Shown piece by piece: positions 1,729 to 55,610 of a stretch of DNA of 64,000 nt. Positions within the stretch are counted from its first letter, which is position 1, and each line of letters starts with the position of its first letter. The notes beneath the pieces are model-generated. The model did no database searches. It saw only the letters and a program-made list of their open reading frames with translations, and was not told the origin of the DNA. The stretch lies in contig CP034928.1 in NCBI GenBank assembly GCA_004102645.1, forward strand, positions 372,001-436,000. The letters are read 5' to 3'. This stretch comes from Candidatus Bipolaricaulis sibiricus. Lineage in GTDB: Bacteria; Bipolaricaulota; Bipolaricaulia; Bipolaricaulales; Bipolaricaulaceae. The position numbers were made by a program, and so were the translations under genes.

Positions 1729-3507
1729 CTACACGAACGGGGAGACGATCTCCCCGCGCTCGACGTCCACCAGACCGCGGTCCGTGACCCGCAACGCGGG
1801 GATCACGGGCAGGGCGAGAAGCGATAGCGTCATCAGCCCGTCGGCGAGCCGTACCCCACACGCCCGCAGGGCGGCGTGCACCGTTGCCAGCCCGGCCGCG
1901 ACTTCCTCAGCCGGTCGGTCGGAGAGGAGCCCCGCGATCGGGAGCGGGAGGAAGGCCACCACCTCCTCGCCCCGGACGACCGCGATCCCGCCGCCCACCC
2001 GGGCGACGTGGTTTGCGGCCCGTGCCATCGCTTCGGGATTCGTTCCTACGATGAGGAGGTGGTGGCTGTCGTGGGCCACGGTGCTCGCCACCGCGCACCC
2101 CGGTTTGAGCCCCAGGCCGACGAGAAGCCCGTGTCCGATCCGACCCGATCCGCAGTGGCGCTCGACAACGGCCACCCGCGCGACCTCGGGCGGGGTCGCG
2201 ACCTGCCCGTGGTGCACGGGCAGTCGGACCCGCCTCTCCCGCGTGGGAGCCTGGTGTTCGATGAGCTCGATGGCCCGAACCTCGACGTCCCCGGTGGCGA
2301 TCGGGGCTCGGATCGCAAAGTCCGAGGCCGAGAGCGGCCGGTCTAGCCGAACCGTTCCCCGAGCCCAGTCCGGGTACGGGAACCGGGGGAGGGGGACCTG
2401 CAGCTCTCCAGCCCTGGCCACGACCCGGCCCGAGGCGATCACGGTGTCCACGGTGAACTGCTCAAGGTCGGACACGATCAGGATGTCGGCAACCCGACCC
2501 GGGGCGATCGCTCCCACGTCGCGATCCAGGCCGAAGTGCTCCGCCGTGTTTAGCGTGGCCATCGCAATGACCGTAACGGGAGGTACACCCACTGCAATCG
2601 CGGTCCGGACCACGTCGTCCATGTGCCCATTCCGGAGAAGGGTTCGCGCGTCCCGGTCATCGGTGGCGAGGAGAACGCGGCGGGGGTCGAGCCCCAGCTC
2701 TGTCACGGCCCTGAGCCCCTCGATGAGGTCCTGCCACGCCGCACCTTGGCGCAGGATCGCCCGCATCCCCTGCCGGACGCGGGCGACGGCGTCCTCGGCC
2801 CGCGTCCCCTCGTGACAGTCGGCCGGGCCGCCTGCGGCGTAGGCGTGGAACGGCCGGCCGAGGTCTGGGGATGCGTAGTGGCCCCCCACGACCTTCCCCG
2901 CCCGCAGCGCGGCGGTGATCTTCGCGTGTACGTAAGGATTTCCGCCGATCACACCGGGGTAGTCCATCACCTCCCCCAGGCCGATCACCCCGGGCCAGGA
3001 CAGGCCCTCGGTTACCTCGGCTGGCCCGACCTCCGCCCCTGGGGTGTCCAAGCCCTGCACGGCGGGGACGCACGACGGGATCTGCACGTAGACCTTGAGC
3101 GGGAGACTCCCCGCCTCCTCCAGGAACAGCTGAACCGCGCGGAGCCCGAGCACGTTCGTGATCTCGTGGGGGTCGGCGAACACCCCGGTCGTTCCCCGGG
3201 GGAGGACGGCCCGGGCGAACTCGGTTGGGGTGAGCATCGAGCTTTCGACGTGGACGTGGGCATCGAGGAGGCCGGGGACAAGGTACCGGCCCGCGGCCTC
3301 GATCACGTGTGTGTTCGGCCCGATCGCTGGGCCAGCGTCGGGGCCGCAGTACGCGATCCGATCGCCGAGGACGGCGACATCGGTTCCGGCGAGGACTTCG
3401 CCGGAGCAGACGTTGACCCACCGGCCGTTCCGGACGACGAGGTCGGCCGGCCGCCGGCCCGCGGCTACGGCCGTGAGGTCCCGCGTGACATCAGCCCAAA
3501 GAGTCAC
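1729..3507 (-). CDS. ade: Adenine deaminase
   Basis: Catalyses adenine to hypoxanthine plus ammonia in the cytosol. The amidohydrolase signature DAHVHVESSMLTPTEFAR (His84, His86) followed by RGTTGVFADPHEITNVLG is diagnostic of the Ade family. The length of about 592 residues is normal. The frame stays open to a GTG at 3555, but that start would translate through a perfect 12-bp terminator hairpin (3521-3547). I therefore prefer the GTG at 3507, directly after the hairpin tail, which gives a family-like N-terminus. Neither start has a clear ribosome binding site. The gene lies downstream of the nucleoside-binding protein gene and feeds hypoxanthine into the neighbouring purine pathway. Confidence 0.9.
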   Translation of the reverse strand: MTLWADVTRDLTAVAAGRRPADLVVRNGRWVNVCSGEVLAGTDVAVLGDRIAYCGPDAGPAIGPNTHVIEAAGRYLVPGLLDAHVHVESSMLTPTEFARAVLPRGTTGVFADPHEITNVLGLRAVQLFLEEAGSLPLKVYVQIPSCVPAVQGLDTPGAEVGPAEVTEGLSWPGVIGLGEVMDYPGVIGGNPYVHAKITAALRAGKVVGGHYASPDLGRPFHAYAAGGPADCHEGTRAEDAVARVRQGMRAILRQGAAWQDLIEGLRAVTELGLDPRRVLLATDDRDARTLLRNGHMDDVVRTAIAVGVPPVTVIAMATLNTAEHFGLDRDVGAIAPGRVADILIVSDLEQFTVDTVIASGRVVARAGELQVPLPRFPYPDWARGTVRLDRPLSASDFAIRAPIATGDVEVRAIELIEHQAPTRERRVRLPVHHGQVATPPEVARVAVVERHCGSGRIGHGLLVGLGLKPGCAVASTVAHDSHHLLIVGTNPEAMARAANHVARVGGGIAVVRGEEVVAFLPLPIAGLLSDRPAEEVAAGLATVHAALRACGVRLADGLMTLSLLALPVIPALRVTDRGLVDVERGEIVSPFV

Positions 3508-3520
3508 GAGAAGAAGAGAC

Positions 3521-3547
3521 AGGGCGGCTGCCGCAGGCAGCCGCCCT
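3521..3547 (-). terminator. Hairpin after the BMP-protein gene
   Basis: A perfect 12-bp stem with a three-base loop (AGGGCGGCTGCC / GGCAGCCGCCCT) begins 14 bases after the stop of the binding-protein gene. On the minus strand it is followed by GTCTCTTCTTCTC, a pyrimidine-rich tail rather than a pure T run. It probably ends most transcripts after the binding-protein gene and protects that message, with readthrough supplying ade. Confidence 0.75.
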
Positions 3548-3561
3548 GATGACACGTCGAT

Positions 3562-4713
3562 CTACGGTTCTCCGGGCCACGGGCCAACGACCCCGTTGGC
3601 CGCCCACTCCATGGTGATGAGGTGATCGTAGCTCATCCACATCCCCGCCGGAACGACGAGGTTGCCCTTCCGGTCGTACACCGGTCCCTCGAACGGATCG
3701 AACGTGATCCCCGGGTCCGCGAACTGGTTGTGGCGCAAGAACACGAGGTCGTAGACGGAGATCCGGCCGAAGTCGGGATGGTTGATGACGTACCCCTGGA
3801 GTGGGGCCACGTACTTCGGGTTGACCAACATCCCCATCTCTGCGCCCATCGTGGCTGCGTTCTGGGCCATCAGCCACCAGTAGTCGACATGGGCGAGGTT
3901 CTTCGTGGTGTAGGTTCCGTTGTGGACCTTGACCAGGAAGTCGTCGTAGATGACCTCCCAGTGGACGAGCTGGCCGGATACCACGTAGTCGGGCGCGAAC
4001 GCGTACATTGGGGAGTAGTGGGCGAACGAGGTGAACCCCTTCTCCGCTGCCACCTGGATCACTGTGGGGGAGTCCTCGGTAAACGCGAACACGTCACAGC
4101 CTTCGGCGATGAGGGCTTCGGTGGCCTCTTTCGCCGCCGCGGGGTTGTACCACTCGTAGATCCACCGCACGTGGACCTCAGCGGTCGGGTTGACCTCCCG
4201 CACGCCGATGGTGAACGCGCTGATGTGCCTCTTGAGCTCGGGAATCGGGAACGCACCGACGTACCCGATCTTCCCCGTCTTGGTGAGGGCTCCCGCCATG
4301 AGGCCGTTCAGGTAGTACACCTGGTAGAAGTCGGCCATGTAGGTGGCCATGTTCGGCGCACGCTTGAACCCGGACGCGTGGGCGAAGATCACGTTCGGGT
4401 ACCGCTGGGCGGCCGCGAATGTCCCGTCGATGAACCCGAAGCTCGTGGTGAAGATCACGTTGCAGCCCTGGCGCACGAGTTGGTCGATGTAGGTCTCGAC
4501 CTCGCCCTCGGGTACAGACTCCACGTACACTGTGCTCAGCCAGTCGTACTTCTCATCCACGATCCGTCGTGCCACATCGTGGGCATGGGTCCAGCCGTAG
4601 TCGCCGATCGGGCCGACATAGATGAACCCGGCCTTGATGGCCTGCGCGCCCAGGCCCAGGGAACCCACTACCGCCATCGCCACCATCAGCAACACCACTT
4701 TCCGCACGTTCAT
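3562..4713 (-). CDS. BMP-family nucleoside-binding protein of an ABC transporter
   Basis: A 383-residue exported solute-binding protein. Residues 1-25 form a Sec signal peptide (basic start, VVLLMVAMAVVGSLGLG, then AQA) with no lipobox cysteine. The mature start AIKAGFIYVGPIGDYGWTHAH is the standard opening of the Bmp/PnrA basic-membrane-protein family, whose characterised members bind purine nucleosides. It is preceded by an excellent ribosome site (AGGAGGTGA five bases before ATG). It follows the two permease genes and ATPase gene of the same system and is closed by a strong hairpin, so it is likely made in excess over the membrane parts. Confidence 0.9.
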   Translation of the reverse strand: MNVRKVVLLMVAMAVVGSLGLGAQAIKAGFIYVGPIGDYGWTHAHDVARRIVDEKYDWLSTVYVESVPEGEVETYIDQLVRQGCNVIFTTSFGFIDGTFAAAQRYPNVIFAHASGFKRAPNMATYMADFYQVYYLNGLMAGALTKTGKIGYVGAFPIPELKRHISAFTIGVREVNPTAEVHVRWIYEWYNPAAAKEATEALIAEGCDVFAFTEDSPTVIQVAAEKGFTSFAHYSPMYAFAPDYVVSGQLVHWEVIYDDFLVKVHNGTYTTKNLAHVDYWWLMAQNAATMGAEMGMLVNPKYVAPLQGYVINHPDFGRISVYDLVFLRHNQFADPGITFDPFEGPVYDRKGNLVVPAGMWMSYDHLITMEWAANGVVGPWPGEP

Positions 4714-51365: not shown

Positions 51366-53936
51366 CTAGCGTTGGATGTAGACGAACCCCTTGAACTCCC
51401 ACGCCCGCGCCTGGGGGATGGTTGTCTCCACTCGCGCAACATAGATGTAGGCGCCGTTGCGAAGGTTGGCACCGTCCCAGGACACGGATGCCGTATCGGT
51501 TCCCAGGATTTCTCCCACCCGCCTGCCGGTGAGGTCGTACACCGACACGCGGATCCTGCCGGCGCTGGCCGCAACGGGCTCGGAGATGAGGGAGAACGTC
51601 GTCTGAATGGAGAAGGGGTTGGGTGTGATCGCGATTCCGGTGACCTTGTCCGGTCCCACGGCTACCACCTGCGCCGCAGCTTGTCCTGTACGGCGAGCAT
51701 CGCCGGGGTCTGTATAGACTGCCCGCAAGGTGCCCAGGAGAACGTCGCTGGGCAGGGTCCAGGTGACGCGGAACCGCGCAGTTTCTCCGGCCACGGTAGC
51801 GATCACGTCCCAGGTCTTGATCGTCCTTCCCTGAGCGTCGATCAGCGCAAGGATGCCCGCCCCGCGGATCTCCGGCAGCGTGGCGTAGAGGGGATCGGTC
51901 ACAGTGACCATGAGCGGCGCTCCGGGGTAGTACGTAGTGCGGTCGAAGGCCACGGTGATGCCAGGCGTAGGCGGAACCCCACCCGCGCCGCCTTCGGCGA
52001 CCTTCACCGTCGCGATCGCGATGTCGGAGTGGTTCGACGGGTCCTGGTAGAAGGCGATGATCGTATCGCCCGGCGACGAGCTGAGCGTTCCCGTTCCCGA
52101 GACGGGGATGCAGGTCGTCGAGCGGAACACCCCGGATCCCACGGCTGTCTCGCGCAGCGACAGCATCTCCCACGAGCCGTTCTGCGCGTTCCAGAGGAAG
52201 ATCTTCGCTGTAGGGACGACACCGCTGATGCTCGCGGCGGCCAGCATCCTTGCCCCCGGGGTCAACCGGTCATCTGTCGTCTCTGTGCGGGACTGAGGCC
52301 AGATCGGGTAGCTGTGCTCACTGCGTGGGTCGCTGAGGGTGTTGTCGGCAGAAGAGGAGTCCCGGTTCCACGCGCCGAAGATGAGCTCCCTCAAGCGAGG
52401 ATCTTCGTTTTGGTCAGGATCCTCTACTTCTACGTACAGGGTCCCCGACATCGGGATCTCGGTGACGGGTTGGTAGTTGCCGTCGAGAATGCGAAGCCGA
52501 CACTCCGCCCCATCGAGGACCTGGGTGTCGAACAGCTTCACCTGGGCGAACGACACGTCCCATGGCTGGCGCGGGTTCGGCCGGCCAGGGTTGGTCCCTA
52601 GGTAGACCACGCGCACCCGAACCTCGGCGATCAGCTCGCCTGTCCCGTTCTTGGGGCGGAGCGTCACAACGTTGATCACAGGATTGGGCGCCCCTTCGGG
52701 AATCGTGTAGGTGAACGACTCAGTCCAGGTCTGCCCCCCGGCTAGGGTCAGTTCCCGCTCGATCCCCAGGAGTGGGTCGGACAAGCGGAACGTTCGTCGG
52801 GCTGTATCTCCGTTCGTCACCGTGATCGTGAATTCGACGGTCTCCCCGGGAAACGCCTGGTCGGGGGCGACGGTCTTCTCGAGGGTGATCCGCTCCATCC
52901 CCGGCGGAACAACGCGCACTGAGGCGTCGTCCTGGGCCCCGATCTCGCGCGGGCCGCTTGTCCCCGTGTACGTCCCGCGGACCACGGCGATGTTCGCCAC
53001 CGGACCCGGCAGATCGGCCTCGGTCACGGTGTACGTGGCCGTTCCCTCGGTCGTCTCGTCGGGATCGAGAGCGGTCTTTCCCAGCGTGATCGCGCCGAGC
53101 TTGTCGTCGCTGAGAGCGAGCCCGCTGAGGGCGAACGTCCCGTCGTTGGTGACGGTGTACCGATAGGTGATCGTCTCGCCGAGACGAGCGCTCGGCCGAT
53201 CCGCGGTCTTGTCGAGGTGAATCGAGGGTCGCATCAACCGGACCGTTGCCGTGGCACTCGCGGTGACCGCCGCCGAATCGCCCGCCACTTGGGCAGTCCC
53301 GTAGACGACGGCCGTGTTCACGACCCTCCCGCTCGGATCGTCGGGAAGGGCGTGGGTTCGCGTGACCCCCTGGGACGCTCCCACCGCCAGCGCCGCGTCT
53401 TGGAGCGGGATCGTACCGAGTTTGTCGTCCGAGATCTGGTCCAGCACGAGCGACGTGCTTCCCGTGTTCCGAATCGTGAACGTGTAGGTGATGGTGGCTC
53501 CCACCTCGGCTTGCGTGGGATTCGCCTCTTTGGCGAGCGCGACGGCAGCGGTTGGGATGTGTGTGTAGGCGTTCGCGACCACGGAGCGGTTGTACTTGTC
53601 CTTGCCCTGGGCTGTTACATCCACCGGGAAGGGACCGGGGAGGTCGGCGAGGGTGAGGGTGTACGTCCGCGATCCTGTTGCGGTCTCGCCGGGATCGAGG
53701 ATCGTCTTGGCCAAGGTGATGGACGCGCCGTAGTTATCGTTCAGAAGGAGGTTCTCGATTCTGAGGTCCCCCGTGTTCTGCACGGAGAACTGACAGGTCA
53801 CCGTCTCTCCCACGCCGAACACCTGCCGGTTCGGCGAGATCGTCACCAGGATGCTCGACTGCTCCGTGGTCTGTCCCCACCCCACCCACCACAGAGCGCC
53901 CGCCATCCCCAGAGCCAACACCTGTCTGATCTTCAT
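51366..53936 (-). CDS. Large secreted surface protein with DUF11-like repeats
   Basis: An 856-residue exported protein. Signal peptide MKIRQVLALGMAGALWWVGWG is followed by four or five DUF11/CARDB-like beta domains (about residues 30-460), each with a phrase like GETITYRYTVTNDGTFALS and DPDETTEGTATYTVTEADLPG. A different module follows (about 470-640) with SGTLYVEVEDPDQNEDPRLR, GSGVFRSTTCIPVSGTG and GDTIIAFYQDPSNHSDIA. The C-terminus has a FlgD-like fold (AITPNPFSIQTTFSL, VSVYDLTGRRVGEI, SWDGANLRNGAYIYVARVE), as in sorted or anchored surface proteins. It lies nine bases after the neighbouring secreted-protein gene, so the two are cotranscribed. Role: envelope structure or adhesion, inferred. 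Confidence 0.78.
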   Translation of the reverse strand: MKIRQVLALGMAGALWWVGWGQTTEQSSILVTISPNRQVFGVGETVTCQFSVQNTGDLRIENLLLNDNYGASITLAKTILDPGETATGSRTYTLTLADLPGPFPVDVTAQGKDKYNRSVVANAYTHIPTAAVALAKEANPTQAEVGATITYTFTIRNTGSTSLVLDQISDDKLGTIPLQDAALAVGASQGVTRTHALPDDPSGRVVNTAVVYGTAQVAGDSAAVTASATATVRLMRPSIHLDKTADRPSARLGETITYRYTVTNDGTFALSGLALSDDKLGAITLGKTALDPDETTEGTATYTVTEADLPGPVANIAVVRGTYTGTSGPREIGAQDDASVRVVPPGMERITLEKTVAPDQAFPGETVEFTITVTNGDTARRTFRLSDPLLGIERELTLAGGQTWTESFTYTIPEGAPNPVINVVTLRPKNGTGELIAEVRVRVVYLGTNPGRPNPRQPWDVSFAQVKLFDTQVLDGAECRLRILDGNYQPVTEIPMSGTLYVEVEDPDQNEDPRLRELIFGAWNRDSSSADNTLSDPRSEHSYPIWPQSRTETTDDRLTPGARMLAAASISGVVPTAKIFLWNAQNGSWEMLSLRETAVGSGVFRSTTCIPVSGTGTLSSSPGDTIIAFYQDPSNHSDIAIATVKVAEGGAGGVPPTPGITVAFDRTTYYPGAPLMVTVTDPLYATLPEIRGAGILALIDAQGRTIKTWDVIATVAGETARFRVTWTLPSDVLLGTLRAVYTDPGDARRTGQAAAQVVAVGPDKVTGIAITPNPFSIQTTFSLISEPVAASAGRIRVSVYDLTGRRVGEILGTDTASVSWDGANLRNGAYIYVARVETTIPQARAWEFKGFVYIQR

Positions 53937-53945
53937 CGCTCCCCC

Positions 53946-55610
53946 CTACGGCAGGACCTTCACCGAGTTGTACCGGATGAGGATCGTGTCCCCGTTGTAC
54001 GCCTCGAACGTGCCAGAGTGCCAGACCAACTGGTACCCCGCGACCGCATCCCAGACCGGCAGCAGCCGCATCCCCGACTGCGAGAAGAAGATGCCCGAGT
54101 TGTTGCCGACTTCGGGGATTCCGAACCACCACTCGCAGTCGTCCTCGCCGTGGGGGTTGCAGAGGTGGACGGCGACCTCGTCAGGGCAGCACGCGCTCTT
54201 GTTCGCGTCGGCATCGAGCACTTTCACGTACAGCGCGTCGCCGATGCGAACCACGCTCACTGGCGTGCCATTGGCGTCTGCAACGTACGTGCGCGAGCGC
54301 GGCCGGTTCCCCACCTCTGCCCAGCCCATCGTCAGGTCGCTGAAGTCGTTGGGGTCGATGTAGTAGAACGCGATCGTCGTCCCGGGGATGAAGGTACGGA
54401 AGCCAAGGGCCCGCTGAAGCTGGTCCAGGCTCCCAAACTTGTGTTCGAACACGCCCGTGTTGACGCCCGTCTCGTAGGCGTAGAACAAGACGCGACCGAG
54501 CCCGACGCCCCCATTGGCGATGGCCGCAACAACCTCAGGGTCGAGCCAGTTGTTGGGGTAGTCGATGTACCGAGACCAGGTGGGTGCCGCGTCCAGTCTG
54601 CCGGTCGAGATGTTCTTCAGCGTGTAGGGGACCGGCGCGTCGTAGATGTTGTACCAGCGGATCGGCTGGTAGATGGGGTCCCCGGGCACAAGATGCTCGG
54701 CCCATCGGGTCTGGCCAGGGCCCAGCACTCCACCAAAGCTCATCAGAGCGCAGAACTCGGTCACACGGTCCGTGGAGGAGTCGAGGGATCCGTCGTCAGT
54801 GTCGAACCCGCCGGGGTTGACGATCACGAAGAACGGAACCGCATCCACCTTGTTGCAGTCGAGGTTCTCGTCGGGATCGCGGATCGTGACGGTGATCGTC
54901 TCGCACGACGACCCACACCCATAGGCAAAGCGCGTGGGGGTCACCGAGACTGTGGCTACCGTCGAGAAGACCTTCATCTGGGTTGCGGCGATATTCCGCC
55001 GGTCGGTCTGATCAGCCACGATGGCGATCAAGGTATCGTTGTTCGTGAACCGCCCCTCGATCGGCTTCTCAGCCGTGTTCCCACTGAGATCGCCATCGTA
55101 GTGGGTGTACTGGAACCGGACCGCCCTCTTGTTCGCCGGGTACCCGGCCTGGGGGGACGTGGCGAGGTCGCCCATCAGACCGATCCCGAGTGCGGCTTCC
55201 GCGTCTTCGTCGACGTACTCCCAGTTTCCCTCCTGCCACAGGGGAGACCCGAGGCTGTGTTCCATCTCCGTGACCTCGGAGTAGCTCCTCCGCCCGCCCA
55301 CGGGCACGGCTCGCTTGCGACCGCTCTCGTCCACCCAGAAGAAGAGGCCGCTGCCGATTCCGAACTCGCGGAACGTCTCGTCTTCGCGGTCGATGTATGC
55401 CCCCGTCTTGAGGTCGAACACCGTCACGTCGGCTTTGAACGTCGAGATCCCGCACGCCCCCTTGTCGGGGGCGTGGACGACGAGGTGGAACGACTCCCCC
55501 TCCCGGATGACGGTCATCGCCTGCCCGTCGGACTGTGCGAACTTCAGCGTGAACCCCGAGGCGCCGACGGCGACGCTCAGCACAAGCGTGATCGCCAATG
55601 AGTTCCTCAT
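53946..55610 (-). CDS. Secreted surface protein sharing modules with its neighbour
   Basis: A 554-residue exported protein (signal peptide NSLAITLVLSVAVGASG). I do not recognise the whole, but it contains copies of a module also present downstream: ETITVTIRDPDENLDCNKVD with NTGVFEHKFG and TTIAFYYIDPNDFSDLT; then IGDALYVKVLDADANKSACC with NNSGIFFSQSG and DTILIRYNSVKV. The Asp-rich loops (D-x-D-x-N) suggest calcium binding. Cysteine pairs lie in the loops. AAGGGGGA lies upstream of the ATG. It is the first gene of a two-gene surface-protein operon. Confidence 0.72.
   Translation of the reverse strand: MRNSLAITLVLSVAVGASGFTLKFAQSDGQAMTVIREGESFHLVVHAPDKGACGISTFKADVTVFDLKTGAYIDREDETFREFGIGSGLFFWVDESGRKRAVPVGGRRSYSEVTEMEHSLGSPLWQEGNWEYVDEDAEAALGIGLMGDLATSPQAGYPANKRAVRFQYTHYDGDLSGNTAEKPIEGRFTNNDTLIAIVADQTDRRNIAATQMKVFSTVATVSVTPTRFAYGCGSSCETITVTIRDPDENLDCNKVDAVPFFVIVNPGGFDTDDGSLDSSTDRVTEFCALMSFGGVLGPGQTRWAEHLVPGDPIYQPIRWYNIYDAPVPYTLKNISTGRLDAAPTWSRYIDYPNNWLDPEVVAAIANGGVGLGRVLFYAYETGVNTGVFEHKFGSLDQLQRALGFRTFIPGTTIAFYYIDPNDFSDLTMGWAEVGNRPRSRTYVADANGTPVSVVRIGDALYVKVLDADANKSACCPDEVAVHLCNPHGEDDCEWWFGIPEVGNNSGIFFSQSGMRLLPVWDAVAGYQLVWHSGTFEAYNGDTILIRYNSVKVLP

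Follow-up and report, generated by a model that had tools for sequence, protein, structure and literature searches.

Proteins built from arrays of Ig-like domains that resemble surface-layer (S-layer) proteins are already known. In the accessible part of its description, the S-layer of N. maritimus is reported to be Asp-rich and to be disrupted by EGTA (PMC11153153). For F. johnsoniae, the available extracts of an account of the type IX secretion system (T9SS) state that type B substrates are often encoded beside their shuttle (PMC12618676). For the Bipolaricaulota, the first closed-genome study left open, in the sections available, both the number of membranes (one or two) and the outer cover (PMC6092417). 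In the retrieved portions of the open-access literature on Bipolaricaulota (S-layer, type IX secretion, envelope, surface protein) and Acetothermia (S-layer, type IX secretion), including PMC6092417, PMC8857248, PMC8542988 and PMC6146748, no coat protein is described.

Here, we analyse two adjacent genes of this phylum, located in a 64,000-nucleotide stretch of DNA (the window), whose products, P2 and P1, correspond to consecutive halves of a single Ig-array protein. The first-pass annotation of this region had noticed a module shared by the two proteins; it had overlooked the total of five modules, the array of DUF11 domains in P1 and the origin of the two genes as halves of one. The new part is this split pair with its gain of DUF11 domains.

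Organization of the split locus

The locus comprises the following elements:

53946..55610, minus strand: P2, 554 aa, N-terminal half of the split surface protein with modules M1-M3 (open reading frame and alignment)
55554..55610, minus strand: signal-peptide-like start of P2, residues 1-19 (by eye from the sequence)
53936..53948, minus strand: fission junction, comprising the TAG of P2, a G-rich SD-like stretch and the first base of the P1 ATG (identical site in 5/5 split loci)
51366..53936, minus strand: P1, 856 aa, with a signal-peptide-like start, four DUF11 domains, modules M4 and M5 and a C-terminal tail (open reading frame, Pfam, NCBIfam)
53865..53936, minus strand: signal-peptide-like start of P1, residues 1-24 (by eye from the sequence; absent in one-piece proteins)
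52608..53864, minus strand: four DUF11/DUF7507 domains, P1 residues ~25-443 (Pfam, NCBIfam, AF2 model)

The stop codon of P2 and the start codon of P1 lie on the same strand and are separated by 9 nt, an arrangement that is compatible with the cotranscription assumed earlier; a scan for promoters and terminators returned no more matches than expected by chance. The locus is flanked by an EF-P cluster on one side and a DUF2227 gene on the other (both identified by Pfam), the latter side also carrying genes that we take to be groES, groEL and topA. Within the stretches compared, the same flanking genes recur at the split locus of the other four genomes that contain one.

P2 has no match in Pfam, NCBIfam or the PDB sequences. 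Its predicted pI is 4.65, and its Asp content reaches 7.9 percent, compared with 4.7 percent in 15 pooled neighbours. The sum of Asp and Glu is not raised (13.1 versus 13.8 percent in the same neighbours), and the low pI is explained by the small number of basic residues. P1, by contrast with the one-piece proteins described below, starts with an additional region: its first 455 residues have no counterpart in 12 aligned one-piece proteins. The DUF11/DUF7507 domains in this region score over cut-off, with 133.7 bits for PF24346 and 54.5 bits for PF01345 (four stretches each) and 83.8 bits for TIGR01451. No close donor of the array turned up in the same genome, where the nearest other DUF11 matches are ~30 percent identical.

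A module present in five copies

The first-pass annotation had proposed a two-part unit common to P1 and P2, composed of a strand with an acidic loop followed by two further conserved segments. We located its motifs in both proteins and delimited the modules as follows:

54957..55553, minus strand: module M1 (A2 alignment and hhalign)
54309..54956, minus strand: module M2 (motifs and hhalign)
54864-54878, minus strand: DPDEN loop of M2
54447-54473, minus strand: ETGVNTGVF segment of M2
54336-54383, minus strand: GTTIAFYYIDPNDFSD segment of M2
53955..54308, minus strand: module M3 (motifs and hhalign; conserved H/C/D/E cluster)
54201-54215, minus strand: DADAN loop of M3
51993..52565, minus strand: module M4 (motifs and hhalign)
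52407-52421, minus strand: DPDQN loop of M4
52125-52151, minus strand: ETAVGSGVF segment of M4
52023-52070, minus strand: GDTIIAFYQDPSNHSD segment of M4
51651..51977, minus strand: module M5, MG2-like (hhalign to M4 82 percent; PF01835 below cut-off)

In protein coordinates, the DPDxN loops are found at P2 245 and P1 506 and the DADAN loop at P2 466; the further segments are ETGVNTGVF at P2 380, ETAVGSGVF at P1 596, GTTIAFYYIDPNDFSD at P2 410 and GDTIIAFYQDPSNHSD at P1 623. A DNA pattern for DPDxNxD matches the 1.70-Mb genome only twice, once in each gene, and the same pattern read backwards has no match.

Single-sequence BLAST detects no internal repeat in P2 and only a weak similarity between P1 and P2 (best E 0.003), which we dropped as an argument. 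The self-alignment suggested earlier as a check thus gave no result at this level; the comparison of profiles, on the other hand, linked most of the modules. Using module profiles taken from a 51-row family alignment, hhalign returned probabilities of 96 percent for M1-M4, 94 percent for M1-M3 and M2-M4, and 82 percent for M3-M4 and M4-M5, with lower values for M3-M5 (59 percent), M1-M5 (47 percent), M1-M2 (44 percent) and M2-M5 (19 percent) and a non-significant one for M2-M3 (2.5 percent). Reversed and shuffled controls (six per pair) did not exceed 3.7 percent, and the tail (M6) reached at most 4.3 percent with any module. Because most modules are linked far above the controls, the unit is present in five copies, M1-M3 in P2 and M4-M5 in P1. 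The initial count of one copy in P1 and at least two in P2 was therefore right in placing copies in both proteins and too low in total, P1 containing two.

Several positions of the module are nearly invariant. The first Asp of the loop is conserved to 97-100 percent in all five modules (key Asp, 95-100 percent per module), the Phe of the TG-x-F segment to 100 percent in M2-M5, with M1 as the exception, and the Y-D-P at the module end to 95-100 percent in M2, M4 and M5. The acidic loops may be binding sites for divalent cations. M3 (53955-54308) additionally contains a cluster that is near-invariant across the family (consensus CC...VHICDPHxEDDxE; VAVHLCNPHGEDDCE in P2) and, judged by its residues, looks like a putative metal or disulfide site.

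Fission of one ancestral gene

P2 aligns with the N-terminal part and P1 residues 456-856 with the C-terminal part of ~1000-aa proteins from Bipolaricaulota. One such one-piece copy is retained in the same genome (991-aa frame, C1:1500699-1503584) and shares 44 percent identity with P2 and 50 percent with the C-terminal part of P1. Since the two segments are consecutive in these long frames, including the one in the same genome, they represent halves of one ancestral protein, and P2 and P1 are almost certainly the products of a single gene that was split. The cut falls into the M3-M4 linker, a region with pLDDT values of 58-74 in the model of a one-piece protein. The modules flanking it are the best conserved ones when the window is compared with the one-piece copy of locus L039 (M1 42, M2 50, M3 62, M4 55, M5 40 and tail 46 percent identity).

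Within the genus (12 genomes, including that of the window), the split form occurs in five genomes (G000, G001, G002, G009, G010) and the one-piece form in eight, in fragments in one of them (G011); two genomes have both forms (G000, which is the genome of the window, and G009), and one has neither (G006). G010 (95 percent complete), G001 and G002 yielded no one-piece copy. Separate N-part and C-part trees of 26 chosen rows group the five split copies in a single clade (100/100 and 100/99) on a long branch; all five loci have the junction at an identical residue position. The C tree unites this clade with ten one-piece copies of the family to the exclusion of L049 (96/94); the position relative to L049 is not fixed in the N tree, and a warning of long branches was issued by the program.

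As P1 continues the frame of P2 in the window and in L050 and L054, with TAG and only a few codons in between, readthrough of the stop codon could in principle yield one protein of ~1430 residues. The frames differ, however, in L052 and L053, making separate translation of P2 and P1 likely, and the stop is followed by a G-rich SD-like stretch and a signal-peptide-like segment. We regard readthrough as extremely improbable and set it aside on account of the frame difference in two of the five loci.

It is also conceivable that the split copy is a degenerating paralogue, in which a stop codon arose and the halves now drift with little function. The long branch of the split clade would fit this scenario, as would the finding that the P1 frame is broken in two of the five assemblies (L053 and L054), a point that also counts against a functional coat. 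However, the dN/dS ratios of P2, the DUF11 part and the C-terminal part of P1 range from 0.12 to 0.22 in three split loci, so that both halves and the DUF11 part are under purifying selection. Moreover, P1 is equipped with a start signal of its own, three loci are intact, and three of the genomes with the split form yielded no one-piece copy, as noted above. Degeneration is thus an improbable explanation. In-frame TAG codons also occur inside one-piece family members elsewhere (L051, 4971-4973; G027:C81; G087:C202), those of G027 and G087 being a further point in favour of decay; they may reflect sequencing error, a pseudogene or an independent split.

Distribution of the family

A search with P2 gave a match in 36 of 60 genomes, including its own. 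A profile search reached E values of 1e-10 or better in 60 of 100 genomes of the phylum and in 29 of the 38 good-quality ones, with several of the matches being partial. A scan of named genomes with two peptide patterns of this family, whose reach excludes remote relatives, identified 57 loci, mostly labelled Bipolaricaulota, Bipolaricaulis or Acetothermia. Some family records carry the labels Thermotoga, Atribacteria, Deltaproteobacteria and Terraquivivens (L054, L064, L060 and L048) or uncultured bacterium. Four loci (L054, L047, L061, L064) match genomes placed in the genus, family or class of the window; the assignment of the matching genomes to its genus or class suggests that the labels of L054 and L064 are wrong.

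Predicted fold and similarity to an archaeal S-layer protein

An AF2 model was obtained for the one-piece protein of L039 (pLDDT 83.6, pTM 0.74); together with hhalign and Foldseek, it identifies the protein and its modules as an array of Ig-like domains, which is one common type of S-layer architecture. The beta-sandwich proposed for the shared module is borne out by hhalign and the model, and the matching segments did not turn out to have unrelated folds. With this model, Foldseek returned the N. maritimus S-layer (8c8m) as the best PDB match (E 2.2e-22), followed by a C3 convertase complex (E 2.5e-12). When superposed globally, the model and 8c8m agree poorly (TM 0.15/0.10, rmsd 49.7), and VIA aligned 226 residues of 8c8k over M3-M4 (Z 12.6, rmsd 6.6). 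For M5 and the tail, VIA returned complement domains (Z up to 11.9) and PorU (Z 9.9), and since complement and other Ig proteins fill the VIA list for this region, the fold leaves the nature of the tail unsettled.

At the sequence level, a profile based on M4 (M4 plus five M2 rows) has the N. maritimus S-layer protein (NmSLP) as its sole significant match in the PDB (E 7e-7), obtained through several weak repeats, the best single stretch having an i-E-value of 0.29. NmSLP was not found in the PDB with whole-protein, M2-only or M3-only profiles, and the whole-family profile gave nothing significant there; the failure of the M2-only and M3-only profiles weakens the sequence side of the link. The surface-layer assignment of the first-pass annotation therefore gains from the Foldseek and VIA results and the M4-based profile, whereas the other profiles do not bear it out. 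Taken together, we consider an S-layer-like coat fairly probable; its modules would form a lattice.

Adhesins and exoenzymes commonly carry DUF11 arrays and FlgD/T9SS-like tails. The pair could function as an adhesin or stalk that does not build a lattice, with the DUF11 and Ig-like modules projecting P2 as a binding head used in attachment or in capturing nutrients. The P1 model (pLDDT 78.7, pTM 0.38), which rests on a shallower alignment and is good for the DUF11 domains, M5 and the tail but only poor to moderate for M4, retrieves generic Ig arrays in Foldseek, and family f2 comprises several unequal paralogues per genome. Conversely, in the search with the one-piece model an S-layer protein leads all other matches by ten orders of magnitude in E, and P2 has no ligand-binding domain recognized by Pfam or NCBIfam. 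We therefore regard an adhesin as possible, if rather unlikely.

The C-terminal tail and its PorV-like neighbour

The final segment of P1 was previously read as a FlgD-like anchor or sorting signal:

51369..51650, minus strand: FlgD/T9SS-type-A-like C-terminal tail of P1 (TIGR04183)

It scores just over the TIGR04183 cut-off of 23 (24.0 bits; 27.1 bits in a second run), and a PorV-like gene adjoins many of the one-piece genes, both of which favour this reading. On the other side, the tail of the one-piece copy in the same genome stays below the cut-off (19.7 bits), 13 of 14 control genomes also contain weak TIGR04183 matches (E up to 1), one of these genomes having a match over the cut-off, and no convincing SprA translocon was found.

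The neighbouring gene, a frame of ~295-365 aa of the PorV/PorQ type, lies directly 3' of the one-piece gene. All three frames scanned match NF033709 (E 1.1e-15 to 1.1e-24) with 58.1-87.6 bits, against a cut-off of 90, and score far below the cut-off of the PorV equivalog model NF033710. When only non-split copies with a C-terminal end and at least 400 nt of downstream sequence are counted, the gene directly follows 18 of 37; the first copy of L061, where the frames overlap, is a nineteenth. The one-piece gene in the genome of the window has such a neighbour, and in JAPLGD, CAIOGO, JANQGM and RXOA, each with several copies, it accompanies only one of the copies with downstream sequence. No PorV-like gene follows the split loci (0/4) and none was found in the window, which, together with the absence of a tail from P2, counts against a coat with regard to P2 export.

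An Omp85 protein is found above cut-off in the same genome, which argues for an outer membrane. The SprA model TIGR04189 gave 22.9 and 20.5 bits over ~50 of its 2319 positions (cut-off 200), and PF14349 had no match, with the control being silent as well; no convincing SprA was found in this genome. The passages available from PMC8857248 and PMC8542988 contain no description of a T9SS in Bipolaricaulota.

Another region of the same genome (L097, G000:C1:1163000-1172500) is a possible divergent T9SS-like locus. It encodes a subtilase that ends in a FlgD-like segment, and it contains two frames whose PorV-like matches stay below cut-off (NF033709, E 1.1e-10 and 4e-6). A protein of 1287 aa matches SprA over 49 residues (20.5 bits against a cut-off of 200), and a PKD protein of 1002 aa has a FlgD_ig tail over cut-off (35.0 versus 27). 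Near the one-piece gene of this genome, in L096, a 322-aa frame (3284-4249) combines Endonuclease V with an O6-methylguanine-methyltransferase-type DNA-binding domain and has relatives in L043, L099 and L040, and an IS200-like transposase (PF01797; 4641-5456) lies ~2.2 kb past the one-piece gene, beyond the PorV-like neighbour.

Discussion

Our results show that P2 and the C-terminal part of P1 derive from one five-module protein that was split in part of one genus and whose second half gained DUF11 domains. As an overall explanation, we lean towards a two-component coat built from the halves of an ancestral S-layer-like protein. The ancestor would have possessed five Ig-like modules in tandem, their acidic loops conserved, and a FlgD/T9SS-like tail, and a diverged paralogue would then have acquired, in the M3-M4 linker, a stop codon, a second signal-peptide-like start and an array of four DUF11 domains, so that each half came to be made and exported separately. 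Both proteins may cross the inner membrane by Sec. P1 could be retained at the outer membrane through its tail, the probable attachment point being a PorV-like barrel whose gene lies elsewhere, and act as an anchored stalk composed of tail, M5, M4 and the DUF11 array. P2 would dock on M4, the former point of chain continuity, a contact whose chances we judge to be evenly balanced, and its modules would form the coat, in which the acidic loops would bind divalent cations.

On a broader scale, it is tempting to speculate, with considerable reserve, that the Bipolaricaulota have an S-layer akin to that of ammonia-oxidising archaea, carried by a FlgD-like tail on a PorV-like barrel in a setting that lacks a canonical type IX translocon, and that one lineage turned this layer into a two-component system by gene fission. 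The main interest of the finding lies in how little is known about the envelope of this phylum: it provides a concrete candidate for a surface-coat protein and a candidate for its outer-membrane partner. If the proposal is true, the module type of the N. maritimus S-layer extends to a bacterial phylum, and the split locus represents a natural experiment in which a one-piece coat protein becomes two-component.

Among described systems, as far as the available part of its structural description goes, NmSLP (Nmar_1547; PDB 8c8k, 8c8m, 8c8r; PMC11153153) shares with the present family the tandem Ig-like domains and a two-part unit, consisting of an acidic loop after a strand, ETG-x-x-TG-x-F and GDT-x-x-x-x-Y-x-D, that was aligned several times. 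It is archaeal and has ten domains, whereas the Bipolaricaulota family is bacterial and has five modules, a FlgD/T9SS-like tail, conserved cysteines and, next to many copies, a PorV-like gene; the version in the window further differs by its two genes and the DUF11 insert. Proteins with DUF11/DUF7507 repeats (PF01345, PF24346, TIGR01451) resemble P1 in its four such repeats, which are fused here to the second half of a different surface protein. The pairs of T9SS substrate and shuttle, represented by the type B substrates of F. johnsoniae with PorP/SprF, offer a parallel, on the evidence of the extracts at hand, in that the gene for a surface protein with an Ig-like tail precedes a gene for a barrel-like protein (PMC12618676). 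Unlike these pairs, the barrel is PorV-like rather than PorP/SprF, SprA was not found in the genome of the window, the tails score near or below the cut-off, and the split pair has no adjacent barrel gene. Finally, the two-protein S-layers of Sulfolobus, formed by SlaA and SlaB, are similar in their working, as outlined in the accessible sections of PMC12175726: coat and anchor or stalk are separate proteins in both cases, but P1 and P2 derive from one protein.
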